A DNA stretch of 28,531 nucleotides, from positions 1-28,531 of the IMG/VR virus record IMGVR_UViG_3300032240_001572, one strand, 5' to 3'. Under the pieces are notes generated by a model that ran no database searches, was not told the DNA's origin, and saw only the letters and a list, made by a program, of their open reading frames with translations. Positions 2,492 through 10,703 of this stretch are shown here, piece after piece. Each line of letters opens with the position of its first letter. Position 1 is the first letter of the stretch. Source of the stretch: a virus. The position numbers were made by a program, and so were the translations under genes.

Positions 2492-2692
2492 TTATTTAAC
2501 CTTTTTTCCAAACTTAGCCCATAATCTTTCATGAATATAATATCCAAATGCTTCAATACCAGTATAAATAATTGCTCCTAAACTTGCATATTCCCATTCG
2601 CCACTAATCACATAAATAATTGTAGCAAGAATAGAAAAATGAAACACTTCCCAACTAAATGTTTTAAGCGTAGATTTTTTTGTTGATTCCAT
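2492..2692 (-). CDS. DUF2061 small membrane protein, copy 2 (66 aa)
   Basis: A second DUF2061 member: TLKTFSWEVFHFSILATIIYVISG, then YASLGAIIYTGIEAFGYYIHERLW. It keeps the two hydrophobic segments and the HERLW ending but differs strongly from the copy at 946-1149 elsewhere. It is therefore an old paralogue or was acquired separately, not a recent duplication. It starts with ATG at the last base of the secreted nuclease gene. Two members of one membrane family bracketing the kinase-nucleotidylyltransferase suggest a shared membrane process, but this is inference. Confidence 0.8.
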   Translation of the reverse strand: MESTKKSTLKTFSWEVFHFSILATIIYVISGEWEYASLGAIIYTGIEAFGYYIHERLWAKFGKKVK

Positions 2693-3219
2693 TAGTTAAC
2701 CGCCTCTGTAGTTGTATCTTTTGGTGTTACATACTTATTGTACGCTAATACCCAATTTTTTGCAATAGCAGTTTGTGCTACTTTAAGAGTAATAGTACCA
2801 TCACATACAAGACGTTTTAATTTTGTTTCTACAACATCTTTTTTACGTGCATTATTTCCTGCATATGGTTGTGGAAATAAATTTTTAGGATCTGTTGGGC
2901 TTCCGCCTAATTGCAAACTAATCAAATGATCTTCTTCATACAAAGACAAATCTGTTCCATAAATTTTAACAAATGTTTTATATGTTGTTGCTAATTGATC
3001 TGCTTTTAATTTATTTGTATAGTTAACTGCTGGACGAATTGTTGCTGTCCAACCAGATTTACATATATTATCTTTAATATTTTCTTGAGTTACGTTTAAA
3101 TTAATAACACCTGGAGTTGCTTTTTTAATTGGAAGTTTCCAATCTGTTGATGCAGCAGATGCTGAATTACCAATTAAAAGCAATCCAACAACTACGGCAA
3201 CAGTAAATTTATTTACCAC
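2692..3219 (-). CDS. Secreted HNH/His-Me-type nuclease-like protein (175 aa)
   Basis: A Sec signal peptide is clear: a short basic start, a hydrophobic core AVVVGLLLIG, and a cleavage region SASAAS near residue 22. The mature part holds ICKSGWTATIRP, then YEEDHLISLQLGGSPTDPKN and LFPQPY. This DHLxxLxLGG...NLxPQ arrangement is the His-metal finger of small secreted HNH-like proteins of bacteria. The first catalytic His would be in EEDH. Two cysteines (ICKSG, LVCDG) could form a disulfide outside the cell. I use the GTG at 3219, which overlaps the endolysin stop; no ATG is available. Possible roles are degrading extracellular DNA or aiding lysis and release. Confidence 0.75.
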   Translation of the reverse strand: MVNKFTVAVVVGLLLIGNSASAASTDWKLPIKKATPGVINLNVTQENIKDNICKSGWTATIRPAVNYTNKLKADQLATTYKTFVKIYGTDLSLYEEDHLISLQLGGSPTDPKNLFPQPYAGNNARKKDVVETKLKRLVCDGTITLKVAQTAIAKNWVLAYNKYVTPKDTTTEAVN

Positions 3220-3692
3220 TTTGGACGAGCCACTCCCATAACTAATGAGTATGGACGCTTACGCTTGTAAGCACCTCCTCCATTTGCTTGTGACCCAGTA
3301 GAATTTTCTGGGCTAGTATTGCCCTCATATGTAATAAGATTCTTTCCATCATTTGAAACAACAATACCTACATGCTCTGTTGTATGTGGGTCCTTATCAA
3401 AATTAAAAAATACAATATCTCCAGGCTCTGCTTGACCAACTGCTACATATTGTTTGTTTTTTACAAACCATTGCCATCCCGCATTACAAGATGCAAAACC
3501 TTTTTTGCTTGATGCTGCAACAAGTTTAATTGCCCCTGCTTCATCAAAACACTTTGATACAAACATTGCACACCATGGTTGATTGTTTAGTCCGTACCAC
3601 TTTCCAAAAATTGTATCGTTGTCGCCTGTTTCTACATATTTTGCATCTACATAGGCTTTTGCCTTTGCTAATACATCTACTGCTGTTGTCAT
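3213..3692 (-). CDS. CHAP-domain endolysin (159 aa)
   Basis: This is a single CHAP (amidase/endopeptidase) domain that cuts peptidoglycan at the end of infection. The catalytic Cys is in NQPWCAMFVSKCF near residue 41, the His in TTEHVGIV near residue 116, and EGNT follows as the usual third site. GDIVFFNF is the typical CHAP strand between them. There is no wall-binding domain and no signal peptide, so it should depend on a holin. The ATG has a strong AGGAGG six bases upstream and a consensus promoter 27-55 nt upstream, so it is likely strongly expressed in its own transcript. The secreted nuclease gene starts inside its last codons. Confidence 0.9.
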   Translation of the reverse strand: MTTAVDVLAKAKAYVDAKYVETGDNDTIFGKWYGLNNQPWCAMFVSKCFDEAGAIKLVAASSKKGFASCNAGWQWFVKNKQYVAVGQAEPGDIVFFNFDKDPHTTEHVGIVVSNDGKNLITYEGNTSPENSTGSQANGGGAYKRKRPYSLVMGVARPKW

Positions 3693-4127: not shown

Positions 4128-4544
4128 CTACTTTATCTTAATTGTTTTTGGTTTCTTTTCTTCAGGAACAATGCGATCAATATTTACATGAAGCATTCCA
4201 TCTTTAAGTTCTGCACCAGTAACTTCCATGTATTCACCAAGTGCAAATGATCGTGTAAACTTACGACCAGCAATTCCTTTGTGAACAATTTCAGCATCTG
4301 TAATTTCCGTAATTTCACCCTTAATTACGAGAGAACCATTATCTACTGAAACATCAATATCATCTTTTGTAAATCCTGCAATTGCAATAGATAAACGATA
4401 TGTATCTTCATCTAGTTTAAGAAGATCATATGGAGGATATGATTGTGAATTGATTCTATGTGCATCATTTAGGCGACTCAACTCTCTGTTGAAGCCAATA
4501 AAAAAAGGATCATTGAATAGATCCATAGCGAACTGTGTTACCAT
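4128..4544 (-). CDS. Small heat-shock protein, Hsp20/alpha-crystallin family (138 aa)
   Basis: The alpha-crystallin domain runs from about residue 38 to 128: YRLSIAIAGFTKDDIDVSV, then GSLVIKGE, FTRSFALG and GMLHVNI in place of the A-x-x-x-n-G-v-L signature. The C-terminal tail ends TIKIK, matching the IxI motif used in oligomer assembly. Such ATP-independent holdases prevent aggregation and are known in cyanophages, where they are thought to help late protein folding. The gene has its own promoter (TTGCCA-17-TATAAT) and a GAAAGGGG ribosome-binding site, so it is an independent unit. Full-length, with no sign of decay. Confidence 0.92.
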   Translation of the reverse strand: MVTQFAMDLFNDPFFIGFNRELSRLNDAHRINSQSYPPYDLLKLDEDTYRLSIAIAGFTKDDIDVSVDNGSLVIKGEITEITDAEIVHKGIAGRKFTRSFALGEYMEVTGAELKDGMLHVNIDRIVPEEKKPKTIKIK

Positions 4545-4811: not shown

Positions 4812-5339
4812 CTAAATACTTACTACGTCAACTGGTCCAATACAGGATGTTGAATATTTTATGGCTGCTTCTACTGCTAATTGGGCTCTTCTTTTTCCAT
4901 TTTTTTGATTTTGTGTTGTCCATAAAGAACCAAGTGCAAAATCAGAGCCTGATCCCATAGCAAGATAATCTTCTTGATATTCTGTTAAAGACATATCAAC
5001 TGCATTATGTTCAAATACTCTACCTTTAATTGCAATAAGCATACCAAAGTCAGAGTCTTTTGATATGTCTACCCACCAAGTTTCATAAAAATTTCTAAGT
5101 GCAACAAGAAATTCAGTATACATAAATTTATCTAGATTAGCATTTGGTTTTGGTACAGGTGGTTTAAAATTGTGACGAATTCTTTCTCCGTCCATTGTTC
5201 CTGCATAACCAAAAAGATAAGGACCAATTTTAAATACTTTTGGAGCCTTTAATGCTAAGATAGAGTCTTCTGTTGATGCACCTCTGTCACCAGCCATATG
5301 AACTGTTTCATCTTGTCTTACAACAGCAATAATTGTCAT
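4812..5339 (-). CDS. Proteasome/HslV-like Ntn hydrolase (175 aa)
   Basis: It starts MTIIAV, so removal of Met exposes Thr as residue 1. Counting from there, Asp17 falls in HMAGDRGAS and Lys33 in ALKAPKVFKIG. These are the three active-site residues of proteasome beta subunits and HslV at their exact positions. The strand FGYAGTMDG and the later LAMGSGSDFALG also fit the family. The length equals that of HslV. There is no ATPase partner in the window. It may process capsid or host proteins, or form a self-compartmentalised peptidase. Its ribosome-binding site lies in the 3' arm of a terminator-like hairpin, and a consensus promoter is nested in that hairpin. Confidence 0.85.
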   Translation of the reverse strand: MTIIAVVRQDETVHMAGDRGASTEDSILALKAPKVFKIGPYLFGYAGTMDGERIRHNFKPPVPKPNANLDKFMYTEFLVALRNFYETWWVDISKDSDFGMLIAIKGRVFEHNAVDMSLTEYQEDYLAMGSGSDFALGSLWTTQNQKNGKRRAQLAVEAAIKYSTSCIGPVDVVSI

Positions 5340-5413: not shown

Positions 5414-5689
5414 CTAATTAGCCTTTTTATCAACAGATTTAAATGCATCATTTATTTCTGATAATGTTAGTTTACCATCTTCAAGATAGGCTCTAGCAAT
5501 ACGCTCAATAACTGAGGCTACTCCTAAGATCCCTGCAAGACCAACAGCCTTTATAGTGTCAATTCCAACTACTGCTCCTGCTCCTAATACTGACAGTCCT
5601 GATGCTGCAAATACTGCAACAATTCTCATCAAAATATTAGAAATTTCTTTTTGTGGGTTTGTTTTATGTGTTTCTTTTTTAGGTGTCAT
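5414..5689 (-). CDS. Holin-like membrane protein (91 aa)
   Basis: A polar basic N-terminus leads into a hydrophobic segment (IVAVFAASGLSVLGAGAVVG, about residues 23-42) and a second one (IKAVGLAGILGVASVI, about 46-61). Then come a basic turn and the tail AYLEDGKLTLSEINDAF. This order (two membrane segments, then a DGKLT-type helix) matches small actinophage and r1t-like holins, which permeabilise the membrane to release endolysin. The ribosome-binding site AAGGAG is six bases before ATG. It is 1 nt away from another small membrane protein, a common two-gene holin set, but the endolysin is 1.7 kb further on under another promoter. Confidence 0.7.
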   Translation of the reverse strand: MTPKKETHKTNPQKEISNILMRIVAVFAASGLSVLGAGAVVGIDTIKAVGLAGILGVASVIERIARAYLEDGKLTLSEINDAFKSVDKKAN

Positions 5690-5690
5690 T

Positions 5691-5876
5691 TTATTCTCCT
5701 TCCTTTGGATTTCTTAGTCTAAGGGTAATTACCCAAAGAATAAATGAAATCAGGGTGACTTTGCCAATTACTGTTTTTGCACTGCCCGTTAGAACGAGCC
5801 ATGCTGAGAATAATCCAACAAAGGTCCAAATTTCGGACATAAAATCTTTAGAAATATCTTTTATAAATTGTCTCAT
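5691..5876 (-). CDS. Small two-segment membrane protein, possible second holin or antiholin (61 aa)
   Basis: An amphipathic basic start (RQFIKDISKDF) is followed by membrane segments EIWTFVGLFSAWLVLTG and VIGKVTLISFILWVITL, then a charged tail RLRNPKEGE. I recognise no family. Its ATG overlaps the TGA of the lectin protein, and it lies just before the holin candidate, so lysis is the natural guess. Paired membrane proteins of this size are typical of actinophage lysis cassettes. Confidence 0.7.
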   Translation of the reverse strand: MRQFIKDISKDFMSEIWTFVGLFSAWLVLTGSAKTVIGKVTLISFILWVITLRLRNPKEGE

Positions 5877-7696
5877 GCTCCGAACCTCCTTCTAATGGCA
5901 GCAACCGCAACGGTTAATACCAATATTTTTTTTGCTTTTTTTCTTGTTACTGGACTCATATCATTTCCGATATTAGCCAATGCTACATATGCTGCATTTA
6001 CTGCTTGTGCTCCTGGTACTGCTGCTATTGCATCTGGAAGTGGTGTTTCTATCACTGGCACAGCAATATCTGGAGCATTAAATGTTGTACCTCCAGGTTG
6101 TCCAATAAATGTATCCTGCGTTGTAATCGCATCTGGCGGAATTGGTAGACCTGATCCTGGAGGTGGTGCGGGTGGAGTTAAATTTCCATCTTCTCCCACA
6201 ACCTGTGGTGCTGTTTTAGTTCCAAAGAATTCTATTCCGCCGTTTTCTATTCCTGGCTTATCTTCTTGTATATGTGGAACCAGCACTTCTTTTGGTGCTT
6301 CTTTTACTATTGTATCTGAAAGTTGATCTGGACTATTTGGTTTTACACCAATAGCATCTTGTTTTGCTTTATCATCTGCTGTTTTTTGTGCATCAATTTT
6401 AGCCTGTGCATCTTTTTGTGCTTGAATTGCAGCATCCGCTTGTGCTTTAGCATTTTTTGCTGCTTGATCTTTTGCAGCCTGATCTGCTGCTATTTTATCT
6501 GCTTCCGCTTTTGCATTTGCTAATTCTTGAGCAATTCTTGCAGCCTCATCTTTAGCCTGTTGAGCAGCAAGTGCTGCATCTGCCTCTGCTTTGGCTTTTG
6601 CATCTGCCTCTGCTTTAGCAGCATCTGCTTTTGCTTGTGCATTTTTTTCTGCTTGAATTCTTGCATCTTCTTCTGCTTTTAATCTTGCTGCCTCTGCTTC
6701 TTTAGCCTGTTGTTCTGCTAATATACGAGCATCTTCTGCTGCCTTTGCTTCTGCTGCTGCTTTTTGTTGTGCAGATTTTGCTTCCGCTATAGCCTTTTCT
6801 GCAGCAATACGATCTGCTTCTGCTTGTGCAGCCAATGCTGCTGCAATTCTTGCTCTTTCTAATGCTACTGCTGCATCTGCTGCTGCTTTGTCTGCAGCAA
6901 TCTTAGCATCTATGGCTGCTTTTTCTGCAGCAATTCTAGCAAAATCAGGTACTAAAACAGTTACTAAATTAGACCAATTAGAATATACCTTAAGTGTATC
7001 GTTATCTGCTCTAACTGAAAACATATAATTTTTATCTAAACCATCTTGTCCTATAATATTTGTTTGTATAGTTATAGTTGTATTTAATGCTGTTGAATCG
7101 CCAACATTTCCTGTAGCAATACCCCAACCATTTGTAGTATTGGTAAACCACATAATGGCATATCTTTCTGGAGATGTATTAGTTTTTGTTGGAGCAGTCC
7201 AAGTTAATGTAATTTTTTGAGTTGTTGTGTCTAGTACGGCAGATAGATTGTTTGGATCATTTAAAAATAAAGGTTCTGGCTTTGGAGCAGGAGGTGGTGT
7301 TGGCGTTGGAGATGGAGTTGGGTCAACTATTACTTGTGGCAAATCTTGTATTGCTAAAATAACAGAAAGTTGTTTATATACTCCACCGCATGGATCACCA
7401 AAAATATCATTACTTGCAGAAATAACTAAAGACTCATTTTGAATGGCTGATTTAACAATAGATAAAGAATCTACTGCATGGCAATTTGGATCTATTGTGT
7501 AATCTATTGGTGTTCCATATGATGCAAATACTACGTGATCAATTTTATACCCTTGGGGAGCAGCAAGTTGAAGCACATCATTTTCTGCTACAGTTGCAGA
7601 AATCTCAGTAATTGCTCCATGAGCCTTGCTTGCACCTACTAAAAGTGGAAGTAAAGCAATTAATGTTACTAAGGCTATACGAAATAATTTTTTAAT
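5873..7696 (-). CDS. Secreted SUEL-lectin / FN3 / TolA-like coiled-coil protein with C-terminal hydrophobic tail (607 aa, ATT start)
   Basis: No ATG, GTG or TTG precedes the signal peptide. The frame begins at ATT, seven bases after AAGGAG, and reads KKLFRIALVTLIALLPLL with ASKA at about 22-25. A later GTG at 7576 would remove this signal. Residues about 45-117 match the SUEL-type lectin: VVFASYGTP, NCHAVDSLSIV, ISASNDIFGDPCGG, YKQLSV. Only two of the usual cysteines remain. A Pro-Thr linker (125-142), one FN3-like domain (about 148-250) and about 200 residues of Ala/Lys/Glu helix like TolA follow. The end is KKILVLTVAVAAIRRRF, a short hydrophobic segment with a basic tail. It is probably a host-envelope or cell-surface adhesin; a virion fibre is less likely because of the signal peptide. 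Confidence 0.85.
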   Translation of the reverse strand: MKKLFRIALVTLIALLPLLVGASKAHGAITEISATVAENDVLQLAAPQGYKIDHVVFASYGTPIDYTIDPNCHAVDSLSIVKSAIQNESLVISASNDIFGDPCGGVYKQLSVILAIQDLPQVIVDPTPSPTPTPPPAPKPEPLFLNDPNNLSAVLDTTTQKITLTWTAPTKTNTSPERYAIMWFTNTTNGWGIATGNVGDSTALNTTITIQTNIIGQDGLDKNYMFSVRADNDTLKVYSNWSNLVTVLVPDFARIAAEKAAIDAKIAADKAAADAAVALERARIAAALAAQAEADRIAAEKAIAEAKSAQQKAAAEAKAAEDARILAEQQAKEAEAARLKAEEDARIQAEKNAQAKADAAKAEADAKAKAEADAALAAQQAKDEAARIAQELANAKAEADKIAADQAAKDQAAKNAKAQADAAIQAQKDAQAKIDAQKTADDKAKQDAIGVKPNSPDQLSDTIVKEAPKEVLVPHIQEDKPGIENGGIEFFGTKTAPQVVGEDGNLTPPAPPPGSGLPIPPDAITTQDTFIGQPGGTTFNAPDIAVPVIETPLPDAIAAVPGAQAVNAAYVALANIGNDMSPVTRKKAKKILVLTVAVAAIRRRFGA

Positions 7697-7736
7697 CTTC
7701 TCTCTCCTTATAGTCTTGGTGTTGACTAATAGGATT

Positions 7737-7745
7737 ATTATATCA
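7737..7745 (-). promoter_or_regulatory. Extended -10 promoter (TGaTATAAT) for the lectin gene
   Basis: TG-a-TATAAT 40 nt before the ATT start. The -35 region is occupied by the T-run of the upstream terminator and has no TTGACA match. The leader would be about 33 nt with AAGGAG. Confidence 0.6.
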
Positions 7746-7756
7746 TTTTATTGAAC

Positions 7757-7785
7757 AAAAAAGGGAGCCATGTTAATGACTCCCT
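7757..7785 (-). terminator. Intrinsic terminator after the Ig-like secreted protein
   Basis: On the minus strand AGGGAG pairs with CTCCCT (7780-7785 with 7762-7767), with three more pairs (CAT/ATG) past one mismatch, a four-base loop, and then six T (7762-7757). It lies 16 nt after the stop at 7802. Confidence 0.85.
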
Positions 7786-7801: not shown

Positions 7802-8848
7802 CTACTTAATAAGTGCAACCTTAGCCTTTGGATTAGCCTTGTTCCACTTCTTTGCAAGTACGTTGTACTGTGACTTATATGTTGCTGCAGTAAGATCTGA
7901 TACTGCCAACTTTGCAGTTGCTGTCTCTGAATCAGATTTAGCCTTAGCAATTGCATCCGCAAATGCCTTATCTGCTGCAACCTTATCTGCTGAACGACCA
8001 GCCTTTTCTGCTGCTAGTTCTGCCTTAAGCAATGCAATCTGACCAGCAAGATCAGATACTGTGAACTTGGAAATTGCTGACTTAACTGGAGCAGTAAGAC
8101 CTGTTACTGTTGTTGCTGCTGTAGCACCAGTTGCAACAACTGTTACTTCTCCTGCTACTGCTGTAGCAAGTGATTCTGTTTTTGAACCAATAACAGTTAC
8201 TGGAGTTACGCCTGCTGCAGAATTAACTGCTGAGGTTGTAAGTGTTTTTGTAACTGAATTGTCAGCAAATGCTGTTCCAACCAAAGTGATTGCAATAGCC
8301 TCTGAAGCAACTGGGTTGCCAAATACGTCTGTTGCAGATGCTGTGATTGTTGGAACTGTTCCTACTGCTGTTGCTGTAGGTACTGAAAGTGCAACATTAT
8401 ATGCTGGACCTGCTGTTCCCTGAATATAAACAATTGTTGAGTATGCACCATTTGCAATGGTAATTGATCCAACAGTTGTTGAAGTTGTGTATGCATATAC
8501 AGTCATTGCTACTCCAGCAGATGTTGCTGAGTATGATGATGTTCCAGATGCAGTAGTAACTGTTGCTGGTGATGCTGTATTTAGTGCAGTAACCAACTTA
8601 ACTGTTGATGAAGCAGTGAAAGATACTACTGTACCTGTATCTGCTGTTGCTGCAAGTGCAATAGCATATCCTGCAGAGATTGTGTTAGTTGATGGAACTG
8701 CTACCGTTGTCGGTGCTGCAGAAGTTGTTGTGTTTGCTCCACCTGCAACTGTAACAGCAAGTGCTGCTGCGTTGGATGATGTAGCCATTAACATTGTGCC
8801 AGTCAGGGCTGCAGCGATGACAAGGCTGATCTTTTTGAACGAATTCAT
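7802..8848 (-). CDS. Secreted Ig-like surface protein with C-terminal coiled coil (348 aa)
   Basis: The signal peptide is textbook: NSFKKISLVIAAALTGTMLM with a cleavage region SSNAAA near residue 28. The mature protein is Ala, Thr, Val and Ser-rich beta sequence. Residues about 150-230 carry a bacterial Ig-like domain (ASATDVFGNPVASEAIAITL, the invasin-type 'D-x-x-GNPV' turn). From about 265 there is a coiled coil (IALLKAELAAEKAGRSADKV), and the end is basic (YNVLAKKWNKANPKAKVALI). It resembles abundant secreted or S-layer-like proteins of actinobacteria more than a virion protein. AAGGAG sits 5 nt before ATG, two promoters lie upstream and a terminator follows, so it is a separate, probably highly expressed unit. 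The base composition is richer in GC than its neighbours, perhaps pointing to host origin. Confidence 0.8.
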   Translation of the reverse strand: MNSFKKISLVIAAALTGTMLMATSSNAAALAVTVAGGANTTTSAAPTTVAVPSTNTISAGYAIALAATADTGTVVSFTASSTVKLVTALNTASPATVTTASGTSSYSATSAGVAMTVYAYTTSTTVGSITIANGAYSTIVYIQGTAGPAYNVALSVPTATAVGTVPTITASATDVFGNPVASEAIAITLVGTAFADNSVTKTLTTSAVNSAAGVTPVTVIGSKTESLATAVAGEVTVVATGATAATTVTGLTAPVKSAISKFTVSDLAGQIALLKAELAAEKAGRSADKVAADKAFADAIAKAKSDSETATAKLAVSDLTAATYKSQYNVLAKKWNKANPKAKVALIK

Positions 8849-8923: not shown

Positions 8924-10703
8924 GGTAGTCTTTCACCTCATCAGGTATTTCTTTACCTTTATATTCTATCATACCCTCCCCATTATTGTCAACAAAGAGG
9001 GGAGTATCTTTTTTAGTATTAGTCCATGTATGGACTTCAATCTCAAGATTATTATCTTTTTGTGTAAAACTAATAGCATCAAATACGGCTCCGCAAACAG
9101 CATCTGCAAGGTCCTTAGATTTTTTACGTGGGTGATCTACTTTTTTACCATTATCTGTTATTTTTAATTCTGCCATCTCATCAAGTAATAATTGAATATG
9201 AGGCATTGCCACACGCTCTTCATAAATCATCATGGCCAAATCTTCATAATGTTTTTTAGCAACAGAAACAGTATCAGTTCTTATTCCAACAGCCTTTAGT
9301 TCTTGTTGAATATCAAATGACTGCCAACGGTCAAATGTAACCATACCAATATTAAATCCAAGCCTTCTAAGATTTTGAATCCACTGTTTAACCTCTGAAA
9401 GATTAACTGGTCCTTCAACTTTTGGCTCCCAATATACTACTGCATCTACGACTACAATGGGTGCTACTTGTTCATAGTTATTAATTACTTGAACATTTAC
9501 CCATTTTTCTACATGAGCAATTGCTACCGCACATTTATCATGTTTTTGTGCAAGGTCAGCATGTACAAAATAAACCTTTTCTGGATCTGGCTTAAACGAT
9601 TCATCAAACCTTTTAAAGTTATCAATAGGGTTTCTAAGTGTCATACATTTTTCAAGTTTATCTCTTTGTTTAAAAAATGCATCTGATGAATAGGTTGGTG
9701 TGCAAAGGAAACGCATCATTGCATCTCCCATATCTTTGAAAAAAGCCATTTTAAAATCTTCAATTTCACGAGTTGGATTTACTTCCCATGTTGGTCTTTT
9801 TAAAGCAAATACTCCAGGATATTTATATGAAATAATATGATCTTCTTCCCAAGCAATGTCTAATTTATTTCCAACTTCATCTTCTGGCAAATCAGGATTA
9901 ATTATATAAGTATACTTTCTATCAATAACATCTTTTTCAAGAATTACATCTTCATACCTTTGAGAAATAAAGTCTCCATTGTAACGTGGGAATGAAAGTA
10001 AAACAACCTTTCCAAGGTCTGGAAAACGGGAATCTACAGTACCACTAAATGCCTTATAAATATTGTCTGCAGTTTTACCTTGATCGTTACCTGTACCAAC
10101 TTCAGATGCAAATCCTGAAATTTCATCAAGTACTGCCATAAGCAAGTTCAAACCTTCATGTGATTCTCTTTCTGAATGTCCAGAATAAACAGTAATAGAC
10201 TTATCAAAACCAATAGAGTCTACTTTTGGATCATACTTTCCAGCAAACCATGGTGAGCGTTCAATCTTGCTTTTAAATCCTTTAAAGAAAACATTCTTAG
10301 CCTGTTGTGCGTTAATTGCAACGTTAATGATATCAATAGCATCTCCTGATGGCTTACCAAAATATCTAGCAGGATCTTTAAGACATAATAGTTTATAAAC
10401 TACATATGCACATGCTACTGTAGATACAAAGTCTTTTCCAGATCCCTTGCCAAGTTGCAGGATAATTTCATTTTTTGTATATTTTTTAAAATATTGAGCA
10501 CCTTTATCATGACCCATAAGCAACTTTAAATCTTCTTCTTTATAAATTTGACTCATTGCTTCAACTATGTCGTATTGAATAGTTGATAGTGATGGTTGTC
10601 CCAAATAATCTGGATGTTCAACAAATGTTTTTGCATCTACTGGAGTTTCTTCAAAATTGTTATCTTGAAGTGCCTCAAAAAAATCATTGAACTTCGTGGA
10701 CAA
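8901..10703 (-). CDS. terL: Terminase large subunit (600 aa)
   Basis: This is the packaging motor and nuclease that moves DNA into the prohead. The ATPase half has Walker A GKGSGKD at residues 85-91 and Walker B LLMAVLDEISGF near 190. The RNase H-like nuclease half shows the acidic residues in VHADLAQKHD, GMVTFDRW and SKDLADAVCG. The start is TTG at 10703, overlapping the small-subunit gene by 20 nt; the next Met is at residue 50, too far in. The length is normal for the family. It follows the small terminase gene and precedes the exported-protein block. Two promoters for the next gene lie in its 3' end. Confidence 0.92.
   Translation of the reverse strand: MSTKFNDFFEALQDNNFEETPVDAKTFVEHPDYLGQPSLSTIQYDIVEAMSQIYKEEDLKLLMGHDKGAQYFKKYTKNEIILQLGKGSGKDFVSTVACAYVVYKLLCLKDPARYFGKPSGDAIDIINVAINAQQAKNVFFKGFKSKIERSPWFAGKYDPKVDSIGFDKSITVYSGHSERESHEGLNLLMAVLDEISGFASEVGTGNDQGKTADNIYKAFSGTVDSRFPDLGKVVLLSFPRYNGDFISQRYEDVILEKDVIDRKYTYIINPDLPEDEVGNKLDIAWEEDHIISYKYPGVFALKRPTWEVNPTREIEDFKMAFFKDMGDAMMRFLCTPTYSSDAFFKQRDKLEKCMTLRNPIDNFKRFDESFKPDPEKVYFVHADLAQKHDKCAVAIAHVEKWVNVQVINNYEQVAPIVVVDAVVYWEPKVEGPVNLSEVKQWIQNLRRLGFNIGMVTFDRWQSFDIQQELKAVGIRTDTVSVAKKHYEDLAMMIYEERVAMPHIQLLLDEMAELKITDNGKKVDHPRKKSKDLADAVCGAVFDAISFTQKDNNLEIEVHTWTNTKKDTPLFVDNNGEGMIEYKGKEIPDEVKDYLDRFNLL
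8963..8992 (-). promoter_or_regulatory. Possible second promoter TTGACA-18-TGaTAGAAT
   Basis: The -35 is at 8992-8987 and the -10 TAGAAT at 8968-8963, with a TG extension, inside the last codons of the terminase gene. It would form a tandem with the promoter at 8895. Confidence 0.45.

Follow-up and report, generated by a model that had tools for sequence, protein, structure and literature searches.

Phage T5 is protected by its lipoprotein Llp, which is phage-encoded, exported and surface-exposed and acts against re-infection of the same cell. Ltp of phage TP-J34, a superinfection-exclusion lipoprotein (PMC3952083), shares these properties. Other phage membrane proteins are linked to lysis of actinobacterial hosts: LysZ of the Corynebacterium glutamicum phages CL31 and Cog is a protein of 177 aa with one transmembrane domain (TMD) in N-in/C-out orientation, and LysF1a and LysF1b of the F1 mycobacteriophages are a small two-TMD protein and a second membrane protein whose genes overlap by ATGA (PMC13056207). 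Here we compare with these systems a locus in 28,531 nucleotides of viral DNA (the window; positions 1 to 28,531 of IMG/VR virus record IMGVR_UViG_3300032240_001572). Its minus strand, on which all window features given below lie, carries a gene for a secreted, stalked, lectin-like surface protein of 607 aa (5873..7696), called from its ORF, Pfam matches and relatives, and behind it the gene of a two-helix membrane partner of 61 aa (5691..5876). Unlike the lipoproteins Llp and Ltp, the surface protein is a stalked lectin with a membrane partner and has no evident lipobox. LysZ resembles it in being a membrane protein of a phage with an actinobacterial host that is linked to lysis and is said to engage glycans outside the membrane, but the published account describes no lectin domain (PMC13056207), and the likeness is one of description. 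The LysF1a/LysF1b pair resembles the window pair in its two-TMD protein, its ATGA overlap and its place in an actinophage lysis cassette; however, LysF1b (124 aa) lacks a glycan-binding domain, its outside part is short, and the gene order is opposite.

The original prediction had placed a gene at 5873-7696 without stating its strand. The ORF runs from 7696 to 5873 on the minus strand, and a plus-strand reading of the same positions was rejected for its stops throughout. The gene was also said to encode a SUEL-type lectin at residues about 45-117, and a SUEL/rhamnose-binding-lectin (RBL) domain is indeed predicted at residues 38-113 (7358..7585). A match to PF02140 spans residues 45-113 and model positions 2-77 of 80, scoring 31.3 bits when searched as protein, just under the cut-off of 31.4, and 35.8 bits in a genome search, above the cut-off. 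An AlphaFold model of the domain, made from a 14-row alignment, has a pLDDT of 94 and a pTM of 0.83, and all 14 PDB matches found by Foldseek at E≤0.001 (TM 0.76-0.84) are SUEL, RBL or latrophilin lectins or the lectin-type domain of rice beta-galactosidase. The lectin thus passed both the HMM search and the fold prediction that had been suggested as checks. A family profile of the phage domain matches sea urchin SUL-I (3e-48), CSL3 (1e-21) and bacterial RemA (2e-17); fold, sequence profile and the core motif SNxxFGDPCxGxYK are common to these proteins, latrophilin and the window domain, and RemA is a bacterial carrier of the SUEL domain. A loss of most cysteines had been noted, and indeed two are left in the window domain versus about eight in classical SUEL domains; the classical disulfide pattern, which is common but not required by the Pfam model, is absent. 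Nine columns are invariant across 14 members, including Y60, N96, D101 and K108, which we take to be ligand positions in rhamnose-binding lectins and which are candidate ligand residues here. UniProt already gives the SUEL name to two uncultured Caudovirales proteins, so that SUEL as such is no novelty in tailed phages. The window domain differs from known SUEL proteins in residing near the N-terminus of a stalked, phage-encoded secreted protein with a membrane partner.

The head is preceded by the predicted Sec-type signal peptide (about residues 1-28; 7613..7696), in a layout that relatives share. An FN3-like domain follows (residues 147-233; 6998..7258), whose earlier assignment is weak when taken alone (18.7 bits against a Pfam cut-off of 25) but gains from its recurrence in relatives, residues 158-249 being 42.7% identical to a protein of phage DSL-LC01. 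Both the Ala-rich helix and the hydrophobic C-terminus that had been described are present. The former is a TolA-like helical stalk (about residues 253-448; 6353..6940), seen in the sequence and similar to stalks of two host proteins (L169 and L170). The latter belongs to a conserved C-terminal module (residues 482-607; 5876..6253) with an NIGNDMSP family motif, a hydrophobic helix and a basic end, which is 66% identical to an actinobacterial chromosomal protein. The hydrophobicity of this helix is only moderate, which counts against the surface display proposed below; the AlphaFold model of the module was poor (pLDDT 64) and was left out of the argument. The C-terminal Arg-Arg codons (AGAAGGAGG, window 5873-5895) double as an apparent Shine-Dalgarno (SD) site of the partner gene, and part of the basic C-terminus may be conserved for this reason. 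A sortase-like C-terminal signal, for which motif, helix and basic end are present, was rejected: the helix is weak, long Gly/Ser linkers follow it in some members and the Arg-Arg pair overlaps the SD of the next gene. The original prediction stands for the domain, the Sec signal, the stalk, the tail and the phage context, and the functions it suggested, superinfection exclusion or binding of polysaccharide, are still plausible and come near to the reading that we favour below. Missing from it were the partner with its 4-bp overlap, the site in a lysis cassette, the ATT start together with its promoter and hairpin, the exchange of heads and the homologues of stalk and C-terminus on host chromosomes.

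The partner gene overlaps the surface gene by ATGA. Its products, of 55-68 aa across the family, have two hydrophobic stretches with basic ends and the pattern T-LLG-F-AW-VL-GSAK-VVGYAI. Ten IMG/VR relatives of the head all start with a signal peptide and a variable head; a stalk rich in Pro or Ala then leads to a C-terminal module, in which a hydrophobic helix and a basic end come after the motif GN(I/V)GADMSPxxR. Each of the ten has the partner gene immediately 3'. Scans of IMG/VR found at least 592 relatives with the small protein and, run separately, at least 376 with the C-terminal module. In the fetched loci the small gene lies downstream of the module in 163 of 165 cases, so that pairing is independent of which half served as bait; the four unpaired halves are all at contig or fetch ends, and the start and stop of the two genes overlap or abut in most pairs. 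These loci come from one viral collection and were fetched by similarity, and the counts cover related sequences. In DSL-LC01, the one named phage related to the family, stalked and two-helix proteins are naturally fused in one polypeptide (L012 6672-9506, WJZ48438.1). Only the fused domain of DSL-LC01 matched phrog_29041, of unknown function; no PHROG identity was found for the window lectin or partner, and the PHROG search gave no holin-family match for the partner. Neither the canonical partner nor the C-terminal module matched any of 50,697 GenBank phage records, tblastn with the small protein, the C-terminus or the SUEL domain found no canonical pair in cultured phages, and the literature searches made returned no description of the pair. 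Across hundreds of uncultured, mostly actinophage contigs, the stalked protein and the two-helix protein form an obligate unit.

The expression signals of the surface gene also have described counterparts. The AUU start codon of E. coli infC is repressed by IF3. In Streptomyces, the GTC start of sigR is likewise repressed via IF3 (PMC5472188), and this case provides an actinobacterial precedent for a rare start as a means of translational control, as we propose here. All start codons given are predictions. The ORF begins with IKKLFRIALVTLIALLPLLVGASKAHGA, encoding the Sec signal, immediately 3' of TATAAGGAGAGAGAAG, and contains no ATG, GTG or TTG that would retain the signal peptide. The earliest standard start, GTG 7576, lies within the lectin domain and was rejected because the signal peptide would be lost. 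Since a standard start with signal peptide is absent and an SD site (AAGGAG; 7704..7709) lies upstream at fitting spacing, we infer that ATT (7694..7696) is the start codon, and the gene thus appears to begin at ATT 7696; two relatives (L040 and L042) have ATG at the equivalent place behind the same kind of leader.

The 3' arm of a leader hairpin (7705..7734) enters the SD site. The window leader folds with -9.8 kcal/mol (z -4.0), and in the main class, represented by 37 leaders, 90.7% of cells are paired and 16 cells are changed on both sides, giving a covariation score that none of 500 shuffles reached and that slid versions came nowhere near. A minority class of leaders differs in that CATTCC can pair with GGAGTG, and Rfam holds no credible match for the leader. 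Upstream of the hairpin is an extended -10 promoter-like site, TGATATAAT (7737..7745): TATAAT occurs in the upstream 90 nt of 52 of 55 ATT/ATC/ATA loci, with 4.5 expected from shuffles, as opposed to 4 of 66 loci with standard starts. A terminator-like hairpin of 10 pairs (5 GC) with a T run (7762..7785) separates the upstream Sec gene from the lectin gene, and similar C/T-rich tracts precede the promoter in many ATT loci. Where a surface gene has a strong SD, the codon found at fitting spacing is only ATT, ATC or ATA in 50 cases and a standard start in 6, whereas other genes of the same loci show 19 rare and 227 standard starts (Fisher p 2e-34, a nominal value because the sequences are related); a rare start was assigned in 34 of 81 cluster representatives. 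In the window's group, the AUU start and the SD hairpin probably keep translation low or conditional. Unlike in infC and sigR, AUU, AUC and AUA recur here through a phage family and come with a promoter and SD hairpin of their own. The window also encodes an HSP20 small heat-shock protein (4128-4544) with homologues in related loci, some of them preceded by TATAAT and an apparent ATA.

The surface gene of the window is unsplit. In nine loci (L033, L039, L040, L042, L043, L051, L052, L066 and L068) it is split, the first ORF ending in T TTA AAA TAA or C CCA AAA TAA (slippery TTTAAAA or CCCAAAA), the C-terminal module lying in the -1 frame and a hairpin of -14 to -23 kcal/mol following about five bases past the site. 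Among other long ORFs, a slippery heptamer stands at the end of only about 1.3%. The nine loci thus look like textbook sites of programmed -1 frameshifting, from which two products are predicted in this clade, one soluble and one extended at the C-terminus.

Heads and stalks are exchangeable above the fixed C-terminal module. Among 81 representatives, Pfam recognises PA14 in 24, FN3 in 7 and SUEL in 6; with the family profile, SUEL-like domains turn up in 45 of 145. L001, the phage relative closest to the window, has a head 76% identical to that of the window and the same neighbouring genes, but differs in its Pro-rich stalk and in its C-terminus; in stalk type and C-terminus the window protein matches actinobacterial chromosomal proteins rather than this phage. 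Because a WhiB gene scores above cut-off in 38 of 49 virus records tested, most phages of the family are taken to be actinophages. The WhiB match of the window is sub-threshold, and its host is probably actinobacterial in view of its relatives and host-like C-terminus. The pair was found in 3 of 296 genomes of one actinobacterial order, with no further carrier among a sample of 297 genomes of the class, and a scan of a species-level genome collection with a narrow pattern gave three matches only, two of them known host copies. A purely viral distribution was dropped on account of these copies, and their rarity makes a widespread host origin unlikely. The host pairs lie among normal chromosomal genes. 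As judged from sequence reading, one of them (L176) has for instance threonyl-tRNA synthetase-like and cytochrome bc1-like neighbours, and another (L170) neighbours of the two-component, prenyltransferase-like and ribosome-hibernation-factor kinds; no phage or lysis genes are evident in the vicinity. L170 also holds an apparent remnant of a second copy (9816-10360), with a C-terminus of 57 aa, an in-frame stop and its own partner gene.

On the minus strand of the window the order is terminase, secreted surface-like protein, lectin, two-helix protein, holin-like protein, others and CHAP endolysin. The holin-like protein (5414..5689) was assigned by phrog_443 (holin, 4e-5) and has relatives downstream in many loci; its stronger PHROG match is phrog_26427, labelled nuclease. 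The endolysin (3213..3692) matches PF05257 and phrog_21357 (endolysin). Directly upstream of the lectin gene, 7802-8848 encodes a second secreted protein, S-layer-like and without a Pfam match, with a C-terminal coil ending in KVALIK; similar proteins precede the pair in 29 loci, and it is possible that this product is a viral copy of a host surface protein. An HslV/proteasome-like peptidase (4812-5339; phrog_1040, E 8e-23), encoded between the holin-like and endolysin genes, has relatives near the pair in other loci. The product of 2692-3219, directly after the endolysin, is secreted and weakly matches a non-specific endonuclease, and 1146-1907 encodes a P-loop kinase (APS-kinase-like) fused to a weak cytidylyltransferase-like domain.

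What does the surface module do? We regard the export signal, the lectin fold, the obligate partner, the gene order and the arrangement of promoter, hairpin and ATT as established at the level of sequence. It is appealing to propose that the infected actinobacterium exports the glycan-binding protein and displays it on its own surface, where it would mask receptor glycans and exclude superinfection and debris, much as Llp does for T5. We favour this scenario tentatively, with somewhat less than even confidence, and within it the purpose of the module is most likely the covering of a receptor glycan. The signal peptide is clear by sequence, and the C-terminus and the partner suggest that the protein is retained by the cell: the C-terminal module would be held in the membrane, or inserted into it, by the two-helix protein, and the lectin, taken across the cell wall on its stalk, would bind the host's own surface sugars. 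If the covered glycan is the receptor of the window phage and its competitors, the dying cell and its debris would then spare superinfecting or new virions. Masking is favoured because heads vary, stalks are long, a soluble form is predicted in one clade and solitary pairs occur in hosts. Interchangeable heads are in keeping with an arms race over surface glycans; soluble and extended forms would both be usable for masking and are unexpected for a purely membrane-bound lysis factor; and host pairs without nearby lysis genes are easier to reconcile with an autonomous surface module than with a lysis effector. Apart from split copies and the DSL-LC01 relative, the heads show no similarity to other proteins of the same loci, so that a common target with the receptor-binding protein of the phage is unsupported.

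Proximity to holin and endolysin genes suits a role in lysis at least as well as masking. Perhaps the pair acts as LysZ does, as a membrane-tethered glycan binder that opens the envelope after holin and endolysin, with a holin-like partner and with lipid-anchored or wall glycans outside the membrane as its target. This accessory role has roughly one chance in three in our estimation and is a close second to masking because of the gene order, in which lectin, two-helix and holin-like genes are followed further on by the CHAP endolysin gene. Siting with lysis genes, as for LysZ, extends to the family: where at least 3 kb of downstream sequence is available, these 3 kb contain a holin-like or endolysin gene in 83 of 109 loci and an endolysin gene in 62, the latter count being firmer because holin-like profiles may have drifted during iteration, and about ten more loci have a lysin elsewhere. 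With its two hydrophobic stretches and basic ends the partner looks like class II holins and LysF1a, and LysZ itself is reported to act on lipid-anchored glycans, loss of host LAM rescuing lysZ deletions (PMC13056207). The architecture is another matter, since the window protein has 607 aa with a signal peptide and a C-terminal hydrophobic helix, probably N-out/C-in, where LysZ has about 177 aa and a single TMD in N-in/C-out orientation. The intact solitary pairs on host chromosomes and the soluble form predicted from frameshifting in one clade also speak against such a role, and the variable heads and very long stalks exceed the needs of a membrane-proximal factor. Masking and an accessory role in lysis are compatible, not exclusive.

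T4 RI, which acts with the holin T, offers a model for an improbable third scenario, a sensor of lysis timing whose head senses a superinfecting phage or the state of a glycan and whose partner is an antiholin. Obligate pairing, the fusion with a holin-like hairpin, the position in the lysis cassette and the signs of tight translational control could be accommodated in this way, but contact between partner and holin is unsupported and one host copy stands alone, without a holin. Least probable of all is a virion component, a decoration or tail protein with a glycan-binding head. Virions do use heads of this sort (SUEL, PA14 and FN3), and some members weakly match tail fibre and tape measure PHROGs, probably through coiled stretches, but essentially all full-length members have a classic Sec signal, the protein is paired with a membrane protein on the lysis side and host chromosomal copies lack structural genes.

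Taken to its full extent, receptor masking would be the work of an actinophage lectin-display system, with swappable heads, a stalk, a two-helix anchor partner, an AUU/SD-hairpin switch and, in one clade, soluble and anchored forms made by -1 frameshifting, that shields the dying cell and its debris and is sometimes kept by host chromosomes for their own protection; that all these parts hold together is rather unlikely. The recurrent AUU, AUC and AUA starts with their hairpin offer a natural system for studies of rare-start translation, and automatic annotation will misplace such starts and drop the signal peptide, as the ORF finder did in beginning the gene at GTG 7576. In lakes, few cells are as abundant as freshwater actinobacteria, whose phages have barely been cultured. 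At least 592 IMG/VR stretches with the small partner, set against none in 50,697 GenBank phage records for its canonical form, point to a widespread and undescribed viral module, which probably acts on the host cell surface. The gene pair provides a defined, testable handle on how such phages may manage the host surface late in infection.
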